Shown here piece by piece: positions 313-13,262 of a DNA stretch of 21,729 nt. Below the pieces are notes generated by a model. It saw only the letters and a program-made list of their open reading frames with translations. It was not told where the DNA came from and searched no databases. The first letter of the stretch is position 1. Every line of letters begins with the position of its first letter. The DNA lies in the IMG/VR virus record IMGVR_UViG_3300031601_000044, positions 1 to 21,729 of that record; one strand, written 5' to 3'. This DNA comes from a virus. The position numbers and the translations under genes are program-made.

Positions 313-951
313 TTAGTATGTTTCGCCGGATTCTGTAAACTCACATTCATTTGCAATAAGACTTTCCCCTATCGCCTCATCACCTGTCAAGTATTCATAC
401 TCTTTAGTTAATCGCTGGTAGAACGTGTCCATTAGTTCACGCAATATCTGCTTTATGTCTTCAGGATCAAACGTCACACTTGCGTCCCCGTCCCATGTAT
501 GGCGTATGTCGAATTCTGTACACCCGGAATGATTGTAGTGTCCATGATGTTTAATGTCACCATAGATACCATAAAACGCGTGCCTCTGTTCAGACTGTAG
601 ACGTTCACCAATTGCGTGCAATTCTTTGTTGCACTCATCCTCTTTAATCCTGCCTGTCTTGTGGTCTTCCCATGTTTTTGGCGCGTATGATTCTAAACGT
701 CTACGCCATTGCCTTGAGTATTCAAAACGTCCCGTGAAGCAAAGACCATCACCTTGCGAGGCAAAACCACTAAACCATATGTTATCTATTTTAACTCCCA
801 ATATTTCACCTATGGCATAAAAGTCTTCATACGCTGAATCCCACCATTCATCGCATGACGTATTCCAGTCCCTATTGTTATCAAGAGCTTTCTGTTTAGC
901 CCCATCGCATAATTCCTCAAAAGAATATGTCTTTATCATGTATGTCTTCAT
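313..951 (-). CDS. Conserved phage hypothetical protein (212 aa)
   Basis: This is the largest leftward gene. The N-terminus has the pattern YSFEELCDGAKQKALDNNRD followed by DEWWDSAYEDFYAIGEILGV and then FSGFASQGDG. From memory this matches a family of small proteins common in phages and prophages whose members begin F-x-F-D-E-L-x-x-x-A-K-x-K-A and carry a WW/W-[DE]-x-[VA]-Y-[ED] core; some are auto-annotated as antitoxin-like, without experimental support that I know of. The start at 951 is supported by AAAGGGGATGAC immediately upstream. It is soluble, with no membrane segment or signal peptide. The gene lies 24 bp before its downstream neighbour and about 60 bp after the upstream one, so cotranscription is likely. 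Function unknown. Confidence 0.85.
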   Translation of the reverse strand: MKTYMIKTYSFEELCDGAKQKALDNNRDWNTSCDEWWDSAYEDFYAIGEILGVKIDNIWFSGFASQGDGLCFTGRFEYSRQWRRRLESYAPKTWEDHKTGRIKEDECNKELHAIGERLQSEQRHAFYGIYGDIKHHGHYNHSGCTEFDIRHTWDGDASVTFDPEDIKQILRELMDTFYQRLTKEYEYLTGDEAIGESLIANECEFTESGETY

Positions 952-1010
952 GTCATCCCCTTTAATCGGTTAATGATATTTGAGGCGATACACTTTGGTA
1001 ATGTGTACTG

Positions 1011-1283
1011 TTAGCATTCATCTGGTTTGTATGTCTCTGTGCCCACTAAGTCCATGTCTTCGGTTTCTACCACACCAATATAGTTCCCTACTGATTTAGT
1101 GACCCATAGCCAATGATCTAATTCATCCTCTGTCATGGTGGTGGCGACATAGATTTGGCAACATTCTTTATCTTCGTAATACAGCCCATGAAATTGGCAA
1201 GCCATTACATCCTTGCGTTTGCCCAATAACCTAATCGTAACGTTGGCATTTCGTGTCTTATGATCAATAATGAATGTGCGCAT
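1011..1283 (-). CDS. Hypothetical protein (90 aa)
   Basis: A 90-residue acidic protein beginning MRTFIIDHKTRNANVTIRLL, with alternating hydrophobic residues suggesting beta strands in the first half and an acidic C-terminal tail (VETEDMDLVGTETYKPDEC). Four cysteines are present but not as CxxC pairs. Start ATG 1283 follows TAAGGGGATATC, whose TAA is the stop codon of the 24-residue peptide upstream, so translation is probably coupled. No family recognised. Confidence 0.75.
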   Translation of the reverse strand: MRTFIIDHKTRNANVTIRLLGKRKDVMACQFHGLYYEDKECCQIYVATTMTEDELDHWLWVTKSVGNYIGVVETEDMDLVGTETYKPDEC

Positions 1284-1292
1284 GATATCCCC

Positions 1293-1367
1293 TTATGCTA
1301 AACCGATTAATACACCGATGACCAAGATCATCATTTGATTTGTGCTTATGTTGTTGAATAGTGTCAT
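1293..1367 (-). CDS. 24-residue membrane micropeptide
   Basis: A short frame begins at ATG 1367 after a GGAG ribosome-binding site (1375-1378) and ends 9 bases before the next start codon. Its last half, MMILVIGVLIGLA, is hydrophobic enough for a short membrane segment. The same C-terminal pattern (VIGVLI-A-LA) ends the protein at 1863-2063, and the DNA following both is nearly identical. The nearest promoter lies about 50 bp upstream. A shared protein tail, a good RBS and the promoter make it more than a chance ORF. It could instead be mainly a leader for translational coupling. Function unknown. Confidence 0.5.
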   Translation of the reverse strand: MTLFNNISTNQMMILVIGVLIGLA

Positions 1368-1421
1368 GACACTTCTCCATTTGGTTGATTAGCCTGCATT
1401 GTATGATAACCTTCACCCCAT

Positions 1422-1450
1422 AGTATAATCAATGGCAAGGGTGATTGCAA
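1422..1450 (-). promoter_or_regulatory. Leftward sigma-70-like promoter, copy A
   Basis: On the minus strand, TTGCAA (-35, 1445-1450) and TATACT (-10, 1422-1427) are separated by 17 bp. An A/T-rich block (AAATTAAAAGAT) lies just upstream like an UP element. A nearly identical block occurs at 2115-2160. It would drive the 24-residue peptide and the genes to its left. The -35 lies immediately after the stop codon of the 77-residue gene. Confidence 0.7.
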
Positions 1451-1465
1451 GCATTATCTTTTAAT

Positions 1466-1699
1466 TTAGCTTGTAAGCATATTCCAGGTATTACGCAATT
1501 CCCTATATCGTTGCGCTGTTATCTTGCGTATAAGGGTATGACGCACCATATGCTGGCCACCATTCGCTTTAGAGCACTTGAGCATGTCTATCTCACTTCG
1601 CAATCTATCTAAGTGCTTTGATGCACTGGTCAATCCATTGAGGTTTACGGCATTAATCAGTTGTGTCCTTATATTCGGTGTCATGGTCTGGGGTATCAT
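1466..1699 (-). CDS. Hypothetical protein (77 aa), basic and helical
   Basis: A 77-residue basic protein beginning MIPQTMTPNIRTQLINAVNL; the middle (SASKHLDRLRSEIDML) and end (RKITAQRYRELRN) look alpha-helical and Arg/Lys-rich, compatible with a small nucleic-acid-binding protein, but no recognised domain is visible. Start ATG 1699 follows AAGGAGATTAAGATT. It lies 13 bp after the zinc-ribbon gene in the same operon. Function unknown. Confidence 0.65.
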   Translation of the reverse strand: MIPQTMTPNIRTQLINAVNLNGLTSASKHLDRLRSEIDMLKCSKANGGQHMVRHTLIRKITAQRYRELRNTWNMLTS

Positions 1700-2212: not shown

Positions 2213-2594
2213 CTGTCCATAGCTCTGTCCATAGCTGTCCATAGCAGACCAATGTCACATATGGACAGCATAAGTCTTTACTATTACTTGGTTTAAGTGG
2301 TGTTTTCAATACTCTGTCCATAGCAACCATAGCAGATAGTCAAATTGCTGCATATAGAGTAATAAGATAATAGTGCTGCATAGGTAGTTATACGTATAGT
2401 GTGTTTTATTGGATAGTGTTTTAAGTAAGGGGTACATAGTCAAATCTGCTATGGATGCTATGGACAAGATTGGCTAAGTATAGTAGTAGCAAGGGTTTAG
2501 ATGTATATGGAGCTATGGACAGGGGCTAAGTGTAGTAGCAATAAGGAGTTAAGTGGTTAATTGGTAGTGGACTGGTACAATTAGCTATGGACAG
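2213..2594. repeat. Iteron-like array of CTGTCCATAGC in both orientations
   Basis: Exact or near-exact copies of the 11-mer CTGTCCATAGC. Plus orientation: 2213-2223, 2225-2235, 2235-2245, 2314-2324 and a shortened copy at 2327-2333. Inverted orientation (GCTATGGACAG): 2260-2268 (9 of 11 bases), 2448-2455 (truncated), 2457-2466 (10 of 11), 2512-2522 and 2584-2594. Except for 2260, the plus copies lie on the left and the inverted copies on the right. The last two inverted copies are also followed or preceded by a longer degenerate direct repeat (GGCTAAGT-TAGTAG near 2472 and 2524). No gene is seen here. A multi-site binding region for a replication initiator, partition or regulatory protein is the simplest reading. 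Confidence 0.8.
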
Positions 2595-2848: not shown

Positions 2849-2944
2849 CCTCACTACCCGGCACACATAATATCAGAATTTGTGGTATAACTATTCCAGC
2901 TTTTCCAAGGCAAACTTGTCAGAAGATGTATATGTTTTTCTGGC

Positions 2945-2996
2945 ATTGTGTAAATTTGTATCCACTTGTTGATAGGTGAGTACAAATTTACACAAT
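2945..2996. repeat. Perfect 16-bp inverted repeat
   Basis: Left arm 2945-2960 (ATTGTGTAAATTTGTA) is exactly complementary to right arm 2981-2996, with a 20-base spacer in which CACT/GGTG can extend the pairing. No T-run follows on either strand, so it is not a simple terminator. It may be an operator, a cruciform or a single-strand initiation structure in the control region. Confidence 0.8.
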
Positions 2997-3003
2997 TCGT
3001 GAG

Positions 3004-3060
3004 AAAAACTATATATGCGTTGTACAAACCTTGACAGTTAACAACATATATGTAGTTTTT
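3004..3060. repeat. Imperfect 20-bp inverted repeat
   Basis: Left arm 3004-3023 (AAAAACTATATATGCGTTGT) and right arm 3041-3060 (ACAACATATATGTAGTTTTT) pair over about 18-19 positions with one offset bulge on each side and a 17-base spacer. It ends in TTTTT on the plus strand, and the left arm gives the same on the minus strand, so it could act as a weak bidirectional terminator despite its A/T-rich stem. It follows directly after the 2945-2996 repeat. Confidence 0.65.
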
Positions 3061-3142
3061 CCCACAATCCATGCATACTAGGGAATATGTTGGAAGCCCA
3101 GGGAATAAAATAAATATTACCATATTTTTTGTAACAAAACCA

Positions 3143-3171
3143 TTCAAATATGGTACACTGTGATGTATAAT
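3143..3171 (+). promoter_or_regulatory. Rightward sigma-70-like promoter
   Basis: TTCAAA (3143-3148), a 17-bp spacer and a perfect TATAAT (3166-3171) precede the first rightward gene. Transcription would begin near 3178, giving a leader of about 40 bases before ATG 3221 with its GGAAGGA ribosome-binding site. It is divergent from the leftward promoters. Confidence 0.65.
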
Positions 3172-3220
3172 AGAAGGGTGTATGTTTTTGGAGAAATTGT
3201 TTAATTGGAAGGATACTAAA

Positions 3221-4521: not shown

Positions 4522-4851
4522 ATGAAATGTATCAACAAATCAGTTGTACTGGAAGTTAAAAAAGTGACATCATTAAATAGAACCGACGGTGGAATTTTTC
4601 TGCCGGATGACAAGAATGCTGAAGACGAGTTAAAGTTCATCGTGTATATGATAGGCGAAGGCGTGAAAACGGTACGAGTAGGTGATGTAGTGTTAAAGCC
4701 CGAAGTGACAGTGTTGCGTCACACGCGTGTACGTCAGGGTGCCCCTGAGTATGACATGCGTCTGCCTAATGGTGGTGACGGCATAGTAGTTTATGAGAAT
4801 GACATCCGGGTGATTATTGAAGAAGCATCCGAAAATGTCGAAGATGCATAA
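4522..4851 (+). CDS. GroES-like co-chaperonin (109 aa)
   Basis: Residues 21-30 (TDGGIFLPDD) match the GroES mobile loop, where GG plus a hydrophobic tripeptide (IVL in E. coli, IFL here) docks onto GroEL. This is followed by a strand resembling GroES GEV-x-A-V-G (VYMIGEGV, 41-48), the VRVGDVVL segment (51-58; GroES VKVGDIVI) and a C-terminal YENDIRVIIE strand (91-100; GroES ESDILAIVE). Length is close to bacterial GroES (about 97). Several phages encode co-chaperonins (T4 gp31 and related) that replace host GroES so GroEL can fold the capsid protein; the same role is inferred here. Start ATG 4522 follows AAGGAATGAAAG. It is the last protein gene before the RNA array. Confidence 0.7.
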   Translation: MKCINKSVVLEVKKVTSLNRTDGGIFLPDDKNAEDELKFIVYMIGEGVKTVRVGDVVLKPEVTVLRHTRVRQGAPEYDMRLPNGGDGIVVYENDIRVIIEEASENVEDA

Positions 4852-4877
4852 CGCTCTTTGATAATTGAATAAGTAAG

Positions 4878-4949
4878 ACCAGGGTAGCTCAGTGGTAGAG
4901 AGACGCACTTATAAAGCGTATGTCGTGGGTTCGAGTCCCACCCCTGGTC
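4878..4949 (+). tRNA. tRNA-Ile with anticodon UAU
   Basis: A full cloverleaf: acceptor ACCAGGG/CCCTGGT, T8, D-arm with A14, G18G19 and A21, T-arm GTGGG-TTCGAGT-CCCAC. The anticodon stem is ACGCA/AGCGT (one A-A mismatch) around loop CTTATAA, giving anticodon TAT (4910-4912). G10-A25 is also mismatched and the discriminator is C. CCA is not encoded. It would read AUA, which appears often in the neighbouring genes. Confidence 0.85.
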
Positions 4950-4953
4950 TTTT

Positions 4954-5085: not shown

Positions 5086-5141
5086 AACCCCACAAGCCTC
5101 TCAAAACCATATGGTAACTTGAAGCTCAAATGTGTGGGGTC
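5086..5141 (+). ncRNA. Compact hairpin RNA in the tRNA array
   Basis: ACCCCACA (5087-5094) pairs perfectly with TGTGGGGT (5133-5140). Inside are AGC/GCT, TCAA/TTGA (5101-5104 with 5119-5122) and CCAT/ATGG helices stacking towards one apical loop. It ends in CTTTT like the neighbouring tRNA genes, so it could be processed with them or act as an imperfect terminator. It has no T-arm or anticodon loop, so I do not call it a tRNA. Confidence 0.35.
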
Positions 5142-5145
5142 TTTT

Positions 5146-5241
5146 GGCGTAGTAGCTCAGTGGATAGAGTATCGGAGAATTCGCAGCGTTTAAAAACCGC
5201 GCAAATTCCGAATGTCGCAGGTCCGAGTCCTGCCTACGCCC
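5146..5241 (+). tRNA. tRNA-like gene with a 30-nt anticodon loop
   Basis: Acceptor GGCGTAG/CTACGCC is perfect; T8, A14, G18G19, A21, D-stem GCTC/GAGT and T-arm GCAGG-TCCGAGT-CCTGC are present (C at position 55). The anticodon stem TCGGA (5172-5176) and TCCGA (5207-5211) is perfect, but 30 bases, not 7, lie between them. That insert can fold further (CGC/GCG pairing) and ends in an apical TTTAAAAA that looks like an anticodon loop for UAA. No T33 fits the usual place, so the anticodon is undetermined. The variable loop ATGTC equals that of the tRNA-Ile. Confidence 0.6.
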
Positions 5242-5953: not shown

Positions 5954-6436
5954 ATGGCAACTGGCAAGAAATCAGGAATGTTCGAAAAGAAGTTGCTTAA
6001 GTTTTTGCGTAATATTGGCGCCGAAGTGGAAGCACAGGAAGACGATACGGTGTCGACCAAGATAGAGGCATTGGCAAGGCTCACGTGGAAGGAAGCGTTG
6101 GGGTATACCTATGAGCGTGAAATACTAGGCAAGGAGGGCAAAGTAATTAAGGTGCAAGAACATATGGCACCAGATAGGTACGCAAAGCAAATACTGTTCG
6201 ATCATCTGCTGGGTAAACCCAAACCACAGACACAGAAACAGATGGACGATAAAAAGCCGAAGGCACCACCGGTACATGATCGTGTGGGTGAGTCGCTTAT
6301 TGGGCACCTAAACGAAATTGCGGAGAAAAGTCATGTTGACAGCAGTGGAAGCGGCAAGAGAAGTAATAAAGCCACAACTCGCAGTACCATTTCCGAGCGA
6401 CTCCGAATATTGGGTATGTCCAAAGACAGGACTTAA
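5954..6436 (+). CDS. Putative terminase small subunit (160 aa)
   Basis: Evidence is mostly position: it directly precedes and overlaps the large terminase gene. Residues 36-75 (KIEALARLTWKEALGYTYER) and 86-100 (APDRYAKQILFDHLLGKPKP) look helical. The second, ending in LLGKPKP, resembles the region of DUF5681-like and small-terminase proteins that ends in DRxxGKP. The C-terminal third is Ser/Lys/Arg-rich and probably disordered. The gene shares its last 104 bases with the large-terminase start, an unusually long overlap. In tailed phages the small subunit recognises the packaging site and regulates the large subunit; that role is inferred here. Confidence 0.5.
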   Translation: MATGKKSGMFEKKLLKFLRNIGAEVEAQEDDTVSTKIEALARLTWKEALGYTYEREILGKEGKVIKVQEHMAPDRYAKQILFDHLLGKPKPQTQKQMDDKKPKAPPVHDRVGESLIGHLNEIAEKSHVDSSGSGKRSNKATTRSTISERLRILGMSKDRT

Positions 6437-8255
6437 GGTTCCCAAGGGCATAATTCAAAACATGCAGTGGCGTAAAGATCTTTTGGAACGGGCGTATGAA
6501 GATACCGTGCTACAGCATGACTTATTGGTAGCATGTAAAGAGTCAAAACTGTTCTGGATAAACGCTTTCTGCTGGACGTTCCACCAGTGGGATGTTGATC
6601 CGAATACAGGTAAAAGGCATCCCGCGATAAACCAACACGTACCATTCGTTACGTGGGAGGTGCAAGATCGTTGCATAGATACGTTCGACTGGTGCCTTGC
6701 TAACGGTGAGGACGTACTTGTCAATAAGAGTCGTGATATGGGTGCCTCATGGTCATGTATGGCCTACATACATTGGCACTGGCTATTTACTACCAATGCC
6801 CAGATGTTGGAGATGTCACGTACCAAAGAGTATGTGGATCAGACCGCTAACATGAAGGCACTCTTTCCCAAGCATGATTATATGAATAGATGGCTACCTT
6901 GGTGGATGCGTCCTCCTGAGTGCTTGCCAGAGCAGAAGAACCGTTCATGCATGCACCTTTTCAATGAGTTAAACGGAGCGTGTGTAGATGGTGAATCAAC
7001 TACCGAACATGCTGCATCGGGTGATAGAAGACTCATTGTCCTTCTAGACGAGTTCGCGAAGGTCAAACATGGCAGAGAGATGCGTTCGGCTACAAGAGAT
7101 GCAGGAATCTTTAGAATCATTAATTCAACAGTTGCCGGGCCAGGAACGGAATATTCTAATTGGAAAAACTCTAGGCAAATCAAAATCTTCCCGCTCATGT
7201 GGTGGGACCATCCAGAGAAAGGTTCCAAACGCTACGTGCAACAGGAACCTGTATCCAAGGAATGGAAGATCAGATCACCGTGGTACAACTATGAAGAAAC
7301 AATTCGTTCACCTAAAGAAATGGCCCAAGAAGTTGATGCAGATGACATAGGGTCGGGTAATGCATTCTTTAACATAGCTGGCATAGACACACATGACGCC
7401 TTGTTCGGATGTAAGCCAAGAGTAGAACTAAACGTTGAATTTAAGCGGGGTATAGCGGATGATGCGATACCCTCTTTGTTACGCACAAGAAGCATAACGT
7501 GTCTGAAGGTGACGAGGGGACGCAAGAGCAAGTTAAAGTTATGGTGTCGACTAATAGGAGGAAGACCGAATCAGAACCTAACATACAATTTTGGTATGGA
7601 CATATCAAAAGGAATGGGTGCATCCAACTCAGTGATAAGCGTTCGATGCCTAGAAACTGGTGAGAAGGTGGCTGAATGGGCGTGTGCCCAAACGTTGCCG
7701 GTTGATATGGCACGCGTTGCAGTTGGACTCGCACTATGGTTCGGTGGACGTGGGAGATGCAATCTTCCATTCATGATCTGGGAAAAGAACGGTCCCGGTC
7801 TTAACTTTGGCAAGCGTATAGTTAGGACATATCACTACCCAAGGTATTACAGAACTGTTACTGTCGGAAATGTGCATGACAAGCAGAGTGATAAATACGG
7901 ATGGCAGAGTTCCACTGACGCTAAGTATGAGCTTATGACCGATTACGATCATGCATTGGCGTATGGTGACATTATAAACCATTCAAGTCTGGCTTTAGAA
8001 GAAGCTAGGAAGTACATAACATTTGGTGATAACAAAGTTGGACCATCGTGTCTAATAGAAGAAGACGCTTCAGCCAGAAAGACACATGGTGACAGGGTTA
8101 TAGCCGACGCCCTAACTCTGCTTGGCAAAAAGAAATCACGCAAGCCCGGAAATCTGCTGTCAATGCCACAAGGATCAGCAGGTCACAGGAAGGCACAACG
8201 TAAAAAGTTAAAGAGTAAGAAAAAAGGGTGGCGTCACGGTTTTGATAATAGGTGA
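6333..8255 (+). CDS. terL: Terminase large subunit (640 aa)
   Basis: The ATPase-nuclease motor that cuts and packages phage DNA into the prohead. The ATPase domain has the Walker-A-like KSRDMGASW (residues 132-140), the terminase variant of the P-loop, and Walker B LIVLLDEF (234-241) with catalytic E240. The RNase-H-like nuclease domain shows NFGMDISKG (419-427, D423), an acidic residue at E484 (IWEKNGPG) and a third set at GDRVIADAL (586-594). Start ATG 6333 is chosen over TTG 6318 because GGAGA lies 7 bases before it. Size is in the usual range. The C-terminus (HRKAQRKKLKSKKKGW) is strongly basic. Its stop overlaps the portal ribosome-binding site. Confidence 0.93.
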   Translation: MLTAVEAAREVIKPQLAVPFPSDSEYWVCPKTGLKVPKGIIQNMQWRKDLLERAYEDTVLQHDLLVACKESKLFWINAFCWTFHQWDVDPNTGKRHPAINQHVPFVTWEVQDRCIDTFDWCLANGEDVLVNKSRDMGASWSCMAYIHWHWLFTTNAQMLEMSRTKEYVDQTANMKALFPKHDYMNRWLPWWMRPPECLPEQKNRSCMHLFNELNGACVDGESTTEHAASGDRRLIVLLDEFAKVKHGREMRSATRDAGIFRIINSTVAGPGTEYSNWKNSRQIKIFPLMWWDHPEKGSKRYVQQEPVSKEWKIRSPWYNYEETIRSPKEMAQEVDADDIGSGNAFFNIAGIDTHDALFGCKPRVELNVEFKRGIADDAIPSLLRTRSITCLKVTRGRKSKLKLWCRLIGGRPNQNLTYNFGMDISKGMGASNSVISVRCLETGEKVAEWACAQTLPVDMARVAVGLALWFGGRGRCNLPFMIWEKNGPGLNFGKRIVRTYHYPRYYRTVTVGNVHDKQSDKYGWQSSTDAKYELMTDYDHALAYGDIINHSSLALEEARKYITFGDNKVGPSCLIEEDASARKTHGDRVIADALTLLGKKKSRKPGNLLSMPQGSAGHRKAQRKKLKSKKKGWRHGFDNR

Positions 8256-12158: not shown

Positions 12159-13262
12159 ATGGCTGTAAAAGACTCTCAATTGGCTGACCTTCTTCAAACC
12201 ACCTTGGAAGACCTTCCTAGTCAGGAATTCGAGGTTATGTGGGACAATCCTGAATATGAATTCTGTAGAATTTATCAGAATGAAAGGGTTGAGATTGATG
12301 GTGGTACTGCTATCAGTCGTCGGGTCATGCTTGATCACAATGGTGCTGCACGTTATCGTCGGTTGTATGACACTGACGAACCGACTGTGAACGATGTGAT
12401 GCGAACCATCACTGTGCCATGGTGCCAGATTGGCACGAACTATTCCTGGGACAAGCTTGAGATCATGCGTAATGCCAACTCTGCAAAGGGTTTCATTCGT
12501 CTGATGGACTCACGTAGAATCGACGGTTTGTGGTCACTCGCTGACTTAATCGAGGAACGTGCGTGGAAAACCCCCACGTCAGTAAATGATACGTTGTATC
12601 CCAACGGTGTTCCCTACTATCTGAATATGCTGGATGCCGATGCATCTACTGATGGGTTTGAAGGTCAGACTATCCGCTATCAAGACGGTTCGACTGGAAC
12701 CACCTGTGCTGGGCTTGATGCTAATGCGAATGTTAAGTGGAAGAATTATGCTGCACTCTATAGTGATGTGGATGCAAGTATGGTTGATACCTTCCGTGTC
12801 GCATTTATGCGTACCAAGTTTAAGGCACCACTGATAGTCAATGATCCTGCTTCCGCTCGTTCTGCTGCAAAGCGTTGCTATGCTGGCTATGAATTGATTT
12901 CCAAGCTCATGCGGTTGTCTGATGAGAAGGATGATAACCACAGTGGCAAGGATGTCTTATCTAATTTGCGCGTTGATGATGGTGGCAATGTCATGATTAA
13001 CCGCCTGCCGGTTGTGTATGTGTCTGAACTCGACAGTGTCACCGACCCCGTGACTGGTGATGCAACAGATCCCCTATATTGCGTTGACTTCTCCAAGTTT
13101 GTCCCCGTCGTTCAGGATGGTTATTGGATGATTGAGTCTGAACCTATGACCGATCGTCGTCAGCACACCACGTTCACAGTCTTTCTGGACGGTTCCCACA
13201 ACAACTTGTGCCTGAACAGACGTAAGGCCGGTTTCGTCATTCACAAAGCTATCACTGCCTAA
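12159..13262 (+). CDS. Major capsid protein (367 aa)
   Basis: The shell-forming coat protein. It starts MAVKDSQLADLLQTTLEDLP, continues VMWDNPEYEFCRIYQNERVE and VPWCQIGTNYSWDKLEIMRN, with LADLIEERAWKTP near residue 130. These stretches resemble the HK97-fold coat proteins of metagenomic podoviruses that I recall. Downstream of the acidic scaffold and at a plausible size, this assignment is strong even without a search. The upstream ribosome-binding site AAAGGAAATGAG is good. The gene is codon-biased towards GTT/GCT-type codons more than its neighbours, consistent with high expression. Confidence 0.85.
   Translation: MAVKDSQLADLLQTTLEDLPSQEFEVMWDNPEYEFCRIYQNERVEIDGGTAISRRVMLDHNGAARYRRLYDTDEPTVNDVMRTITVPWCQIGTNYSWDKLEIMRNANSAKGFIRLMDSRRIDGLWSLADLIEERAWKTPTSVNDTLYPNGVPYYLNMLDADASTDGFEGQTIRYQDGSTGTTCAGLDANANVKWKNYAALYSDVDASMVDTFRVAFMRTKFKAPLIVNDPASARSAAKRCYAGYELISKLMRLSDEKDDNHSGKDVLSNLRVDDGGNVMINRLPVVYVSELDSVTDPVTGDATDPLYCVDFSKFVPVVQDGYWMIESEPMTDRRQHTTFTVFLDGSHNNLCLNRRKAGFVIHKAITA

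Follow-up and report, generated by a model that had tools for sequence, protein, structure and literature searches.

Inverted 9-bp repeat doublets around an AT-rich segment, a probable replication origin in a group of uncultivated tailed phages

Phage P4, a satellite, has two repeat regions that lie apart from each other. The winged helix of its alpha protein binds the repeats of the origin (PMC4234260). In SaPIs, the iterons are read by the C-terminal domain of Rep, and the C-terminal domain of Cch2 binds its iterons (PMC7581432), while the repeats of SaPI origins stand in opposite orientations and load two head-to-head SF3 hexamers (PMC9894130). The locus described here lies in the window, which is the whole 21,729-nucleotide stretch of IMG/VR virus record IMGVR_UViG_3300031601_000044, and shares traits with both systems. 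Like the P4 origin (ori1/crr) and alpha, it appears to pair short repeats with a fused TOPRIM primase-helicase that models with a C-terminal winged helix, the domain order in relatives of the window being the same as in alpha. Unlike P4, it has one field with inverted 9-bp doublets round an AT-rich segment and sits in a tailed phage of full size that encodes its own DNA polymerase A. Its oppositely oriented iterons may be analogous to those of SaPIs, and the relatives' helicase region seems to resemble the SaPI5 primase-helicase, although at low model confidence. The origin of SaPIs is directly downstream of rep, whereas here the initiator gene is remote, and the primase is of the TOPRIM type, unlike that of SaPI Rep. 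By further analogy, inverted sites direct two head-to-head SF3 hexamers at SV40 T-antigen and papillomavirus E1 origins, but the binding domain of those proteins is N-terminal and the one here is predicted to be C-terminal. The best structural match of that domain, as modeled, is to RFX transcription factors, which act on X-boxes and are eukaryotic regulators rather than helicases; resemblance to X-box half-sites in the fields, such as GTTACC in G039, is only suggestive.

The field occupies 382 noncoding bases (2213-2594) and holds six exact and two degenerate copies of CTGTCCATAGC (Table 1). A preliminary description had counted at least eight copies of this 11-mer, a figure that is reached only when the two degenerate ones are included. 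The three near-tandem copies at the left end, with a 1-base gap and then a 1-base overlap, lie where they had been reported. Exact copies number four on the plus strand to the left (including 2314-2324) and two on the minus strand to the right, and a copy with one mismatch lies on the minus strand at 2457-2467. The reported flip of orientation across the field therefore holds overall, the exception being the degenerate copy at 2258, which is on the minus strand on the left side.

Table 1. Coordinates of the repeat field and of neighboring features in the window
Feature	Position	Strand	Remarks
Leftward genes flanking the field	313..1699	-	Relatives' leftward cluster includes replication genes
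Outer array, three near-tandem CTGTCCATAGC	2213..2245 (2213-2223, 2225-2235, 2235-2245)	+	Steps of 12 and 10 bp
Degenerate iteron	2258..2268	-	2 mismatches to the 11-mer, 1 to the 9-mer; outside left doublet, opposite orientation
Left inner doublet, CTGTCCATAGC + AACCATAGC	2314..2333	+	9-bp step; kept in L009
AT-rich interior, proposed unwinding element	2338..2443	.	106 bp; GC 0.33
Right inner doublet, inverted, GCTATGG at 2448 and 2457	2444..2467	-	9-bp step
Outer iteron, exact CTGTCCATAGC	2512..2522	-	
Outer iteron, exact CTGTCCATAGC	2584..2594	-	
Promoter-like site TTCAAA-17-TATAAT, rightward genes	3143..3171	+	Consensus match only
Large terminase gene	6318..8255	+	First large gene of rightward structural block; used to find relatives

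Neither the exact 11-mer nor the 9-mer TGTCCATAG occurs outside the field anywhere in the 21,729-base record. At up to two mismatches, the 11-mer has 13 matches in the whole window, whereas 100 dinucleotide shuffles of it average 5.4 and never exceed 11, and the best repeated 9-mer of the spacer scores 15, compared with no more than 7 in Markov shuffles. Copies of the respective 9-mer inside and outside the field number 7 and 0 in the window, 5 and 0 in G023, 10 and 0 in G008, 4 and 0 in G024, and 5 and 1 in G018. A uniform spread of the word through the genome, which had been named as an argument against a dedicated site, is thus not what is seen: in the window the word keeps to the field, and in four related records it almost does so.

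What is conserved is a shorter unit than the 11-mer, either the heptamer CCATAGC or the 9-mer TGTCCATAG. Each inner arm contains two CCATAGC units at a 9-bp step (2318 and 2327 on the plus strand, 2448 and 2457 on the minus strand), an arrangement missed in the preliminary description, and the two doublets are 130 bp apart from start to start. They are part of an inverted repeat with arms of 23 nt (2315-2337 and 2444-2466) that are 96% complementary and separated by 106 nt. In the window, GC content falls from 0.44 in the flanks to the value of the interior given in Table 1, and the poorest 50 bp of the interior rank in the bottom 5% of the 1.9 kb around it. Across the fields compared, the interior is mostly at the local GC minimum, 9 of 12 examples being in the lowest 6%.

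The spacer around the field contains no convincing gene, with leftward genes on its left and rightward structural genes (terminase, portal and capsid, the last at 12159-13262) on its right, which bears out the earlier statement that no gene is present in the field and agrees with its reported place between divergent promoters. The promoter-like site upstream of the rightward genes sits in a block (3101-3189) that aligns with the nearest relative, L009, at 73% identity. A GC-skew plot, suggested earlier as a check, shows a change of sign at the window's field. For the majority of complete relatives that have a field, the skew minimum falls on it or no more than ~1 kb away; as evidence for an origin this is confounded, because gene direction also changes there.

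Searches with the terminase and the capsid protein gathered dozens of related viral contigs. The capsid protein had no match among 50,697 deposited phage records, and the capsid and terminase searches returned no close named phage. By binning, the contigs that carry terminase relatives belong to Planctomycetota and other bacteria, assignments that may be wrong. The corresponding spacer of the relatives, upstream of the terminase, holds comparable fields, usually with a different 9-mer. In L009, the segment corresponding to window 2253-2467 aligns at 78% identity over 215 nt, both doublets are kept at a distance of 129 bp, and single copies of opposite orientation lie ~57 bp outside both doublets; of the spacer to the right, no more than two short blocks align. 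The L009 contig terminates within the field (window ~2236), as does that of G030 within its own. The field words include TGTCCCTAG in G023, TGTTCTATA in G008 (13 sites), TGTGTCTAG in G029, GTCTAGGTA in G049, GTCTGGGTA in G051, TCTAGGTAA in G039, ACACGATAA in G077 and TGGTATGAC in G021, with still others elsewhere, and TGTCCAT is common to G018, G041 and the window. Outer triples or quadruples at near-helical steps recur in G008 (7041, 7052, 7062), L436 (6652, 6663, 6673) and G077. The G077 field (p = 8, d = 131, as defined below) is an almost perfect mirror, with four outer copies per side at 10-bp steps. When all sites are considered, full mirror symmetry reaches significance in G049, G051 and G077 and is less marked in G018, G021 and G040; the window does not show it. 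Similar fields also occur in L430, L435 and L436, contigs from genome bins of Neptuniibacter, Aegiribacteria and Phycisphaerae, and several relatives, such as G003, G004, G013, G022 and G032, gave no field in these scans.

The layout was formalized as two 9-mers at step p (7-13) followed, at a distance d of 70-220, by the same pair in inverted orientation, with a score of at least 43 required, the best score in 113 shuffled loci being 42. In 1.42 Mb of mainly terminase-region DNA, 16 matches were found at p = 9, and d was 103-139 in 14 of them. Once overlapping records are removed, these represent ~10 lineages plus one doubtful AT-rich match (L416). A control of 1.94 Mb of other phage DNA gave two matches at p = 9 (d of 88 and 219) and none with d of 103-139. 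The window, L009, G023 and G008 share a d of 129-130. What the sequence shows is a lineage-specific 9-bp word used in both orientations, a pair of inverted doublets with a 9-bp step that stand ~130 bp apart, an AT-rich stretch enclosed by them, additional outer sites and a constant place between leftward and rightward genes.

Searches with the word itself were less productive. Just two viral contigs, L007 and L008, have two exact 11-mers close together; there the copies share an orientation and are spaced by multiples of three, as would be expected of coding repeats in frame. Matches to CCATAGCNNCCATAGC in viral contigs were mostly period-9 or multiple-of-3 repeats, and the mixed-orientation matches in L043 and L086 are unrelated.

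A TOPRIM primase/SF3 (D5-type) helicase of ~770 aa is encoded in the leftward cluster of all 10 relatives whose contig reaches the gene, near genes for DNA polymerase A, a RecB-like nuclease and an AAA ATPase. It lies ~17-20 kb from the field in G018, G023 and G024. The window contig ends before the gene, which would be beyond its left end, so the protein is assigned to the window by relationship. The earlier remark that the binding protein is not obvious in the window agrees with this, and the proposed search for an initiator gene, which finds none in the window, succeeds in the relatives. Among nine initiators scanned against Pfam, all have D5_N and DUF5906, and three have RFX_DNA_binding. 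A profile search with the C-terminal region gave RFX5 (2.6e-4) and SaPI5 Rep (0.0067). The AlphaFold2 model of this region (mean pLDDT 83.6, winged helix >90) matches RFX1 (1dp7, Z 10.6), RFX5 (Z 10.2) and the phage P4 origin-binding domain (1ka8, Z 8.6), and the C-terminal domain of the relatives thus models as an RFX-type winged helix. In the full-length model, the primase is of the T7 gp4/DnaG type (Z 16.8), and the helicase region, a low-confidence part of the model, aligns with SaPI5 and vaccinia D5 helicases.

We conclude that the field is probably the replication origin of a tailed phage, of the P4 alpha/SaPI Rep kind. This reading, one of those offered in the preliminary description, is supported by the recurrence of the layout with other words, the AT-rich interior, the nearby skew minimum and the P4-alpha-like initiator of the group. 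The primase/SF3 helicase would bind the words via its C-terminal RFX/P4-type winged helix, and the doublets would nucleate two oppositely facing hexamers, one per doublet. These hexamers may then melt the AT-rich interior, prime and launch two forks, and the outer copies could raise the local concentration of initiator or control firing.

That relatives keep the layout in place but spell the repeat differently hints that the word may evolve along with its reader protein. Overall, motif similarity did not track similarity of the initiator C-terminal regions (Mantel p 0.70); a post hoc association between motif and a residue column (p 0.03) failed as a prediction on three further genomes. More tentatively, and at somewhat less than even odds, the fields may form a class of origins in which the geometry is kept (inverted 9-bp doublets ~130 bp apart, an AT-rich segment and a distant initiator) while the word is rewritten with the RFX-type domain. 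What would be new about this predicted origin is its setting, a full-size phage with its initiator gene far away, and a conserved geometry with changing words.

The field might instead be a multi-site operator, at which a phage regulator would bind the inverted sites, loop the DNA and switch the leftward and rightward transcription units. Its place between divergent units, the ~12 helical turns between inverted sites, which suit looping, the promoter-like sites of the spacer and the small HTH-like proteins of some relatives would all fit. We nevertheless consider this unlikely, as no regulator was found conserved across all complete relatives, whereas the primase-helicase, with its winged helix of an origin-binding type, is present wherever a contig reaches its gene, and the AT-rich interior is expected of an origin and unneeded for an operator. 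One field could be both origin and operator. A packaging initiation (pac/cos) site or a physical genome end is a very improbable reading: two contigs do terminate inside the field, but others traverse it, assemblies often break at repeats, contig starts differ among relatives, and the terminase genes are 3.4-4 kb away.

Slightly less probable still is a structured RNA, with the 23-nt inverted arms forming a long-range hairpin in a transcript. The arms remain complementary as the sequence shifts between lineages, and in G023 the repeat reaches 27 nt, but this reading leaves the 9-bp tandem within each arm unexplained, as well as the extra unpaired copies that lie beyond the arms in both orientations, and the field matches no Rfam family. 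Both a packaging site and an RNA hairpin explain less of the anatomy of the field. Clustered sites of one protein in both orientations would also suit a centromere-like partition site for a ParB-type protein, as had been considered earlier, and short repeats flanking a core can be arm-type integrase sites, which counts for an attachment site. In 17 records, with positive controls, neither ParA (PF13614), ParB_N (PF02195) nor a tyrosine integrase (PF00589) was found, and this makes a ParABS centromere extremely unlikely, some partition systems being outside both families, and an attachment site more unlikely than any other reading.

Replication origins are mostly unknown in uncultivated phages, and the origin reading, if right, would give a straightforward rule by which to locate them across a large phage group. 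It would also supply many natural word/initiator pairs for the study of how RFX/P4-type domains read DNA and of how initiator and origin change together. If the origin class is real, its members would let the recognition code of RFX/P4 origin-binding domains be read from a natural series, and it would give a basis for replicon incompatibility between co-infecting phages.

Several minor observations were made in the relatives. The cultured Escherichia phage HelliStehle_Bas95 (L468/L469) encodes a related SF3 helicase with a 28%-identical segment. In its AT-rich divergent spacer (55815-56332), visual inspection picked out CTAACTAAG-like repeats together with a long-range inverted repeat, but the spacer did not score when scanned; as a lead only, the phage is a possible bench model. 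G003 encodes a separate 204-aa protein (L018:10569-11183) that carries a second copy of the initiator C-terminal domain with no helicase, possibly an origin decoy or regulator. A Band_7/SPFH domain protein (L209:7170-7769) is encoded near the putative-origin end of the rightward block and occurs in five relatives (G003, G008, G013, G018, G023).

In the window, two long imperfect hairpins (arms of 31 and 25 nt) lie at 2935-3065 between the field and the first rightward gene, and CACTTGTTGATARGTG at ~2963-2978 is also present in L009. A small protein (4522-4851, plus strand) has a weak match to a GroES co-chaperonin (phrog_3188, 1.6e-4). It is followed by a phage tRNA-Ile with anticodon TAT (4877-4950, plus strand); L009 has a tRNA-Ile with anticodon GAT at its 3132-3205. 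An abiF RNA match at 5088-5140 (plus strand; 35.8 bits vs a gathering score of 37) is directly 5' of an Rfam tRNA match with anticodon TAA (Leu) at 5146-5241 (plus strand; 50.4 bits), for which ARAGORN made no call. An insert of ~30 nt in the anticodon arm of the latter could lengthen the arm around a TTTAAAA loop, suggesting an unusual or intron-like tRNA.
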